Of a stretch of 64,000 nt of DNA, positions 24,314 through 25,720 are shown one piece after another. The translations under genes and the position numbers were made by a program. Location of the stretch: assembly GCA_902578255.1 (NCBI GenBank), contig CACHCH010000006.1, positions 1-64,000 on the forward strand, read 5' to 3'. The notes beneath the pieces are model-generated. The model was not told where the DNA came from and did no database searches. It saw only the letters and a program-made list of their open reading frames with translations. This DNA is from an uncultured Pelagibacteraceae bacterium (GTDB taxonomy: Bacteria > Pseudomonadota > Alphaproteobacteria > Pelagibacterales > Pelagibacteraceae). How positions within the stretch are numbered: position 1 is the first letter of the stretch; each line of letters opens with the position of its first letter.

Positions 24314-24636
24314 CCTATCTAGTCAACGATAAATGTATCAAATGTAAATTAACTGATTGCGTAGATGTGTGTCCAGTTGATTGCTTTTATGAAGGAAAAA
24401 ATATGCTTGTAATTAAACCTGATGAGTGTATAGATTGTGGCGTTTGCGAGCCAGAATGCCCGGTTGATGCCATTAAAGCTGACACTGAACCTGGAAGTGA
24501 AAAATGGTTAGAGATTAATACGAAATATTCTGAGATCTGGCCTAACATAAGTGAAAAAAAAGATCCTCCAGCGGATCATGAAAAATTTAAGGATGAGCAA
24601 AATAAGTACGAAAAATATTTTAAAGAAAATCTTTAA
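24310..24636 (+). CDS. fdxA: 7Fe ferredoxin, FdxA-type
   Basis: [21 protein letters not shown] and [16 protein letters not shown]. Confidence 0.95.
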
Positions 24637-25483
24637 CAGAAAAGTCGAAAAAAAAGTGAAAAAAAAAGTTACTAAAAAAAAAGTTGCTAAAGTTAAAGTT
24701 AAAAAAACAAAAAAAATAAAAAAAGTCACAAAAAAAATAAAAAAAGTTAAAAAAAAAGTTTCCACAAAATCTATAAAAAAAAAATCAATAAAAAAAACAG
24801 CTTCAACTCCAACAGAGCCAAAGGTTGACAATCTAAGAATCTCTAAAACTAACGAGGTAAAACCAGAGATAAAGAAAGTTAAGAAACAAGAAACTGAAAA
24901 AAGAGAATATAAAATTAAAGATTATGTTGTTTATCCCAAACATGGTGTTGGACAAATTACAGAATTTAAAAAAATAAATATAGGTGGAATTGACGTTGAA
25001 ACTTACGTCATAAAATTTGAGAAAGATAAAGCAAATGGAATGGTGCCAGTCAATAAGCAGTCTAATTTGAGACCCTTGGCAACTATTAATCAAGTTAATA
25101 AGTGTATTTCGATTCTTAAAAGCAAACCAAAAATAAAAAGATCAATGTGGAGTAGACGTGCACAAGAATATGAAGCAAAAATTTCATCTGGAAAAATTTA
25201 TGAATTAGCAGAAGTAGTTAGAGATTTGAACAAAGGTGATGATCTAATGGTAGATCAATCTTATAGTGAAAGACAGCTCTTTGAAAAAGCTTATGAGAGG
25301 ATTTTATCTGAATTTCAGATTATTTTGAATTTATCATTAGAAGATACTCAAAAAAAGTTAGATAAAGCGTTAAAGAGAAACATGGGTACCCAAGTACAAG
25401 CTGCGCCAACTGCTAAAGCAGCTGCTACTGAGCTTCCAGTAGATGAACCAATCTCTGATACAGACGAACCTATTGAGGAATAA
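24551..25483 (+). CDS. CarD-family transcriptional regulator with Lys-rich N-terminal extension
   Basis: CarD/CdnL RNAP-interaction domain ([15 protein letters not shown]...[12 protein letters not shown]) after ~100 aa Lys-rich tail; start uncertain (Met at 24551, 24578 or 24593, all overlapping fdxA). Confidence 0.88.
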
Positions 25484-25486
25484 AAA

Positions 25487-25528
25487 AAAACGCCTCTCAC
25501 ACACGAACTGTAATGAGAAGCGTTTTTT
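25487..25528. terminator. Intrinsic terminator, possibly bidirectional, between carD-like gene and convergent small gene
   Basis: AAACGC-c-TCTCA...TGAGA-a-GCGTTTTTT stem with A-run before and T-run after. Confidence 0.8.
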
Positions 25529-25546: not shown

Positions 25547-25639
25547 CTATTTTCTTCTTCTTTTTTTTGCTTTTTTCTTAGCTTTTTTCTTAGCTTTTTT
25601 CTTAGTTTTCTTTGCCGCTTTTTTTCTTTTCTTAGGCAT
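25547..25639 (-). CDS. 30-aa Lys/Ala/Arg-rich peptide, histone-H1-tail-like
   Basis: ATG at 25639 reads MPKKRKKAAKKTKKKAKKKAKKKAKKRRRK*; GGGAG Shine-Dalgarno (AAAAGGGAGCTAAAGATG); promoter-like TTGACA-17-TAAAAA upstream; not in ORF track. Confidence 0.72.
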   Translation of the reverse strand: MPKKRKKAAKKTKKKAKKKAKKKAKKRRRK

Positions 25640-25691
25640 CTTTAGCTCCCTTTTTTAGTTAAACGAATCAAAATGATTCGCTGTTAATATA

Positions 25692-25720
25692 TTTTTATTT
25701 TTTTCTATAAGTTATGTCAA
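25692..25720 (-). promoter_or_regulatory. Sigma70-type promoter for the 30-aa basic peptide gene
   Basis: Reverse strand -35 TTGACA (25720..25715), 17-nt spacer, -10-like TAAAAA (25697..25692). Confidence 0.55.

Follow-up and report, generated by a model that had tools for sequence, protein, structure and literature searches.

The window analysed here, that is, the whole 64,000-nt stretch of uncultured Pelagibacteraceae DNA to which the coordinates refer, contains a gene for a mini-protein of 30 residues built almost entirely of lysine, arginine and alanine. That this ORF is a genuine, stand-alone protein-coding gene, as the preliminary description had proposed, is strongly supported by its order-wide positional conservation, by a bias toward synonymous changes, and by the conservation of its promoter, leader, Shine-Dalgarno sequence and terminator. 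Its product is probably a free polycation, resembling a histone H1 tail or a protamine, that helps to condense the SAR11 nucleoid together with HU and is expressed from its own promoter, perhaps tied to GcrA and CcrM. The features of the locus are as follows.

25547..25639, minus strand: gene of the Lys/Arg/Ala mini-protein, 30 aa, MPKKRKKAAKKTKKKAKKKAKKKAKKRRRK (translation, cross-genome conservation)
25646..25652, minus strand: Shine-Dalgarno sequence AAGGGAG, with a 6-nt spacer to the ATG
25664..25680, minus strand: 5' palindrome and hairpin CGAATCATTTTGATTCG (CGAATCA-TTT-TGATTCG) with two GANTC sites, at the predicted transcript start
about 25684-25686, minus strand: predicted transcription start, placed from the promoter position
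25692..25697, minus strand: predicted -10 box TAAAAA, a weak match, 17-nt spacer
25715..25720, minus strand: perfect -35 box TTGACA (promoter scan)
25481..25528, both strands: bidirectional terminator hairpin common to carD and the mini-protein gene; both strands bear a T-run, and the element overlaps the stop codon of carD
24551..25483, plus strand: carD, the convergent neighbour, outside the mini-protein unit and listed for context (Pfam CarD_TRCF_RID and CarD_C)

The translation matches exactly the peptide given in the preliminary description, with 22 of 30 residues being Lys or Arg and a computed pI of about 12. Such a composition is far from chance, since this ORF is the only one of the 251 ATG-started ORFs of 20-120 aa in the window to reach at least 60% Lys plus Arg, and in one complete genome from the genus of the window (G360) its orthologue is the sole ORF at that level among 4,658. 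The gene is flanked by the convergent carD on one side and by an acyl-CoA synthetase-like gene on the same strand on the other. It is of a size that gene callers skip, and its product matched no PHROGs family, while Pfam and NCBIfam yielded no hit with a meaningful E-value; no description of such a SAR11 gene was found in the open-access literature. A match to the Rfam rhtB-element on the opposite strand (27.3 bits, with a gathering threshold of 55) was dismissed as chance.

A search with the peptide only finds 29 of 101 genomes and misses many orthologues because of the low complexity of the sequence, so orthologues were sought through the neighbouring carD gene instead. The sample was made up of 80 carD loci of public SAR11 genomes, 29 loci found with the peptide, and loci of further genera; with duplicates included it holds 235 loci with a SAR11 carD, two of which (L151 and L169) end too near carD to judge. 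In all 233 loci with enough flank, belonging to 15 genera and two Pelagibacterales families, the mini-protein gene lies on the strand opposite carD and convergent with it, which bears out the conserved place downstream of carD looked for in the preliminary description. The spacing past the carD stop is nearly always 34-70 nt, with a median of 60; the distance is larger in one locus (L158), where the carD match is short. The frame, whose disruption in close relatives had been named as grounds for rejecting the gene, is intact in all but three genomes (L022/L131, L097 and L189), each with a one-base indel within an A-run that may be a sequencing or assembly error; the gene is intact in L098/L133, and in L205 it starts with GTG.

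The length of the mini-protein ranges from 21 to 100 aa across SAR11. In the family of the window (family 1; 11 genera) it is 21-50 aa with 76% Lys plus Arg, and in the sister family (four genera) it is 40-100 aa, mostly 76-100. The sister-family proteins (K 50%, A 25%, R 10%, P 7%; for example, MEELKVIFAKARKKAKKKAAPKKKRKAAKRKPAKKKAAPKKKKRK...) resemble H1 tails and Hc2 in composition, and these longer orthologues lend weight to the likeness to a histone H1 tail noticed at the outset. Such an ORF was found beside carD in none of 29 genomes of other alphaproteobacteria (the flank being short in a few), and thus at its carD-adjacent position the gene is, on present evidence, a Pelagibacterales trait. 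With so biased a sequence, such genes may also exist at other places in other genomes. A class-wide search with an 85-aa form, however, brought up only stretches rich in Lys and Ala, two of which are tails on larger proteins, and spread by phages was rejected, the start-region pattern being absent from viral contigs.

Selection on the coding sequence was examined in 100 distinct family-1 ORFs by counting independent single-base differences between near-identical sequences. In agreement with the synonymous-biased change expected of a real gene, 23 changes are synonymous and six non-synonymous, whereas the mutation models used, among them one with purine transitions only, predict 19-32% synonymous. 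All six replacements are conservative (K/R in four cases, P/A and T/A). Among 3,878 family-1 residues none is acidic or aromatic; the acidic codons GAA and GAG are one step from the dominant AAA and AAG, yet no acidic residue has been accepted in this family.

Judged from the elements around it, the mini-protein gene is a free-standing transcription unit with its own predicted promoter. The strong Shine-Dalgarno sequence that had been claimed is AAGGGAG, 6 nt before the ATG, and GGGAGCTAAAG-ATG is kept across most of the genus of the window. The promoter of the preliminary description holds in its perfect -35 box, but the 17-nt spacer leads to a weak -10 box and the promoter scanner favoured a spacer of 18 nt. 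Likewise, the 5' hairpin is present, but its make-up of CcrM/GcrA-type sites had been overlooked. In the window CGAATCA follows TTGACA by 34 nt. Of 110 distinct leaders, 103 have CGAATC 33-35 nt after the -35 box. The ATG, by contrast, follows CGAATCA at anything between about 37 and 64 nt, so that CGAATCA is in phase with the promoter and falls at the predicted transcript start. Of 176 distinct leaders, 175 carry it no further than 90 nt from the ATG, compared with 0.4% of shuffled leaders. In most family-1 genomes CGAATCA pairs with TGATTCG to form a hairpin of 7-8 bp; other genera build the stem from different letters (CACTTAAA/TTTAAGTG, CACATAAT/ATTATGTG) while leaving CGAATCA unchanged. 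All 110 leaders fold near the 5' end, with a mean of -7.2 kcal/mol that on average 6% of shuffles equal. Since CGAATCA is kept while the stem letters change, and since every leader folds near its 5' end, a sequence constraint and a hairpin constraint both seem to act on the leader.

The terminator claimed downstream of the gene was also found. The window hairpin (about 25485-25528) is strong, though a consensus scanner missed it; its T-run overlaps the stop codon of carD. A T-run follows the stem in 134 of 143 distinct terminators (mean -19.5 kcal/mol), and in 105 the opposite strand has one too; carD and the mini-protein gene therefore share a bidirectional terminator. A list of structured RNAs of 'Ca. 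P. ubique' names no carD-adjacent region (PMC2704228).

Read on the other strand, CGAATCA is TGATTCG, a GANTC (CcrM-type) site matching YGAKTCG. This context has been reported for GcrA-activated, methylated promoters of Caulobacter (Haakonsen et al., as cited in PMC7987155), and, on that cited definition, GANTC occurs in the same context in the mini-protein promoters, in 175 of 176 distinct leaders and at a fixed distance from the -35 box. Two juxtaposed GANTC sites are likewise present in the GcrA-dependent mipZ promoter of Caulobacter (PMC3667746). A CcrM homologue is known in SAR11 (PMC3973325), and the genome of the window encodes GcrA and one N6_N4_Mtase protein (CcrM-type methylase). Just upstream of the CcrM-type methylase gene there are three GANTC sites within about 45 bp (babIM; L272:1358-1406); the 'bablM element', proposed in PMC2704228 as a structured RNA, lies in this rnhB-babIM gap and may in part be a methylation-control region. 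GANTC is strongly depleted in the window (108 observed, 186 expected), as may be expected where CcrM methylates.

The CGAATCATTTTGATTCG palindrome is found a single time in the genome of the window, and none of 60 other genomes of the genus has it more than once. G360 has 14 TGATTCG/CGAATCA sites, of which six are wholly intergenic, compared with 5.8% of all GANTC (P about 8e-5). Besides the one at the mini-protein gene, intergenic sites lie just upstream of clpP-, clpX- and recA-like ORFs and within the gap that precedes a proteorhodopsin-like ORF, these ORFs all being identified by eye.

G360, 385437, 537049, 537742 and 369186: TGATTCG/CGAATCA sites near recA-, clpP-, clpX- and proteorhodopsin-like genes

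We regard these sites as a candidate SAR11 GcrA/CcrM regulon, of which no study was found in the literature, and the mini-protein gene is possibly under GcrA-CcrM control. Alternatively, CGAATCA may owe its conservation to its place in an mRNA hairpin and not to GcrA.

A search for the promoter signature TTGACN-N31-35-CGAATCA in 61 genomes found it in 56, usually once, at the mini-protein gene; the reversed pattern, used as control, gave mostly no matches. Of 24 sister-family genomes, 20 have an extra match, to one recurring sequence. Where its surroundings were read, in six loci (L287, from 1501; L286, L293, and L295-L297), it is the leader of hup downstream of lon, HU being identified by its sequence MNKQDLIAKVADVTGMQKSDSEKAVNAVFDQ..., and the start region reads TTGAC-N34-ACGAATCA, with the hairpin absent. 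HU is the only other gene found repeatedly with the signature. The HU gene of the complete same-genus genome G360 was searched for it and lacks it; the link with HU thus holds for one lineage only, the sister family. Within these bounds, a promoter signature shared with HU, which is independent of composition, points to a nucleoid protein.

On the reading as a nucleoid polycation, the chain would almost certainly be disordered, like a free-standing C-terminal tail of histone H1 or a protamine, and its dense Lys and Arg would bind DNA without sequence specificity. The chain would neutralize the backbone charge and, along with HU, help to compact the nucleoid of SAR11, which is very small. Transcription would start from the gene's own promoter, with its consensus -35 and weak -10 boxes; through the GANTC/YGAKTCG site in the start region, expression may follow the DNA methylation state and the cell cycle via CcrM and GcrA. 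The same start-site sequence would form a 5'-terminal hairpin in the mRNA and could stabilize the message. We infer expression, DNA binding, compaction and GcrA/CcrM control from the sequence data. A bolder version is possible, if doubtful: an order-specific bacterial 'protamine' of SAR11, domain-less and of 21-100 aa, which would be regulated together with HU by a methylation-sensitive GcrA/CcrM element at the start site that couples DNA condensation to the cell cycle. Some considerations count against the nucleoid reading. Polycations bind RNA, ribosomes and polyphosphate as well as DNA, and chains of 21-25 aa are very short to condense DNA stably at physiological salt.

Among known systems, chlamydial Hc2 (hctB) and Bordetella BpH1 are Lys/Ala-rich repetitive DNA binders that vary in length by in-frame gain and loss of blocks, and Hc2 binds RNA in addition to DNA (PMC2848022). 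The Hc2-type traits, a Lys/Ala(/Pro)-rich and repetitive sequence with a variable number of repeats, are found in the composition and lengths of the mini-proteins and in the sister-family sequences. However, Hc2 is 165-237 aa long with K/R-A pentamers, whereas the SAR11 family-1 proteins have 21-50 aa and 76% K/R and are general in a free-living order; no homology is detectable between the two. ScvA of Coxiella, about 30 aa long, is of much the same size as the SAR11 mini-protein but differs in composition, being Gly/Arg-rich. Both ScvA and Hq1 are small basic DNA-binding proteins (PMC4766238); they belong to an unrelated lineage and are tied to the small cell variant. Pseudomonas AlgP and PhaF have H1-like KPAA C-terminal tails that bind DNA, AlgP being associated with polyphosphate granules and the nucleoid (PMC9239181), but there the tails sit on a folded domain, whereas the SAR11 protein is the tail alone. 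The eukaryotic H1 C-terminal domain and the protamines are also disordered polycations, similar to the K/A/P-rich sister family or to the K/R-dominated family 1; the likeness is one of composition only, and no common ancestry is claimed.

The main alternative, which we judge unlikely, is a ribosomal or rRNA-binding mini-protein that fills negatively charged pockets of rRNA. It is a real one because ultra-short basic ribosomal proteins, such as bTHX and bL37, exist; size and charge would fit, and the strong Shine-Dalgarno sequence, the hairpin at the 5' end and a terminator of its own point to high, constitutive expression. A component fitted into the ribosome is, on the other hand, at odds with the almost five-fold range of lengths (21-100 aa), arising by gain and loss of Lys/Ala blocks, and with the lack of Gly or aromatic anchor residues, the termini being conserved in composition only. 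The neighbours, carD and the acyl-CoA synthetase-like gene, are not translation genes, and a PDB search that admitted E values up to 10 gave no matching chain, although such a search is weak for so biased and short a sequence.

It is quite improbable that the partner is another polyanion, the mini-protein serving as a scaffold of polyphosphate or RNA condensates in the way AlgP does for polyphosphate granules. AlgP with its H1-like tail does localize to these granules (PMC9239181) and the sister-family composition is similar, but the mini-proteins have no second domain, no polyphosphate gene was seen at the locus, and, apart from the mini-protein gene, only HU was found repeatedly with the promoter signature. 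A role as transcription accessory to CarD, the free tail being either a competitor of or a complement to the Lys-rich extension at the N-terminus of SAR11 CarD, would account for the invariant convergent pairing and the common bidirectional terminator. We consider it highly unlikely, as the two genes are convergent and not co-transcribed, and gene-dense genomes hold neighbours together for other reasons, the acyl-CoA synthetase-like neighbour being also conserved within family 1. Finally, a small regulatory RNA with a purine-rich stretch that merely looks coding would agree with the conserved 5' hairpin and terminator and the A-rich, low-complexity DNA, but is hardly credible given the conserved Shine-Dalgarno sequence, start (retained as GTG in L205) and stop, a frame kept through many length changes, the synonymous bias, and the lack of acidic codons in family 1.

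SAR11 bacteria are among the most abundant cells in the sea, and their genomes streamline almost everything else away; retention of the mini-protein gene in essentially every genome examined suggests that it is likely to be important to core physiology. Should its product prove to be a nucleoid protein, it would rank with the smallest known and offer a simple model for the organization of a bacterial chromosome by charge alone. A chain of K, R and A only would escape trypsin-based proteomics. The start-site element also provides a concrete and testable entry to a possible SAR11 GcrA/CcrM regulon.

Lys-rich segments were also observed on larger proteins. The N-terminal extension of CarD in the window is Lys-rich (24551-24900, about half K/R) and is absent from most other alphaproteobacterial CarD proteins compared. 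In G360, long Lys-rich N-terminal tails are present on acetyl-CoA synthetase-like, aldehyde dehydrogenase-like and coiled-coil proteins as well as on CarD, those on the metabolic enzymes being odd.
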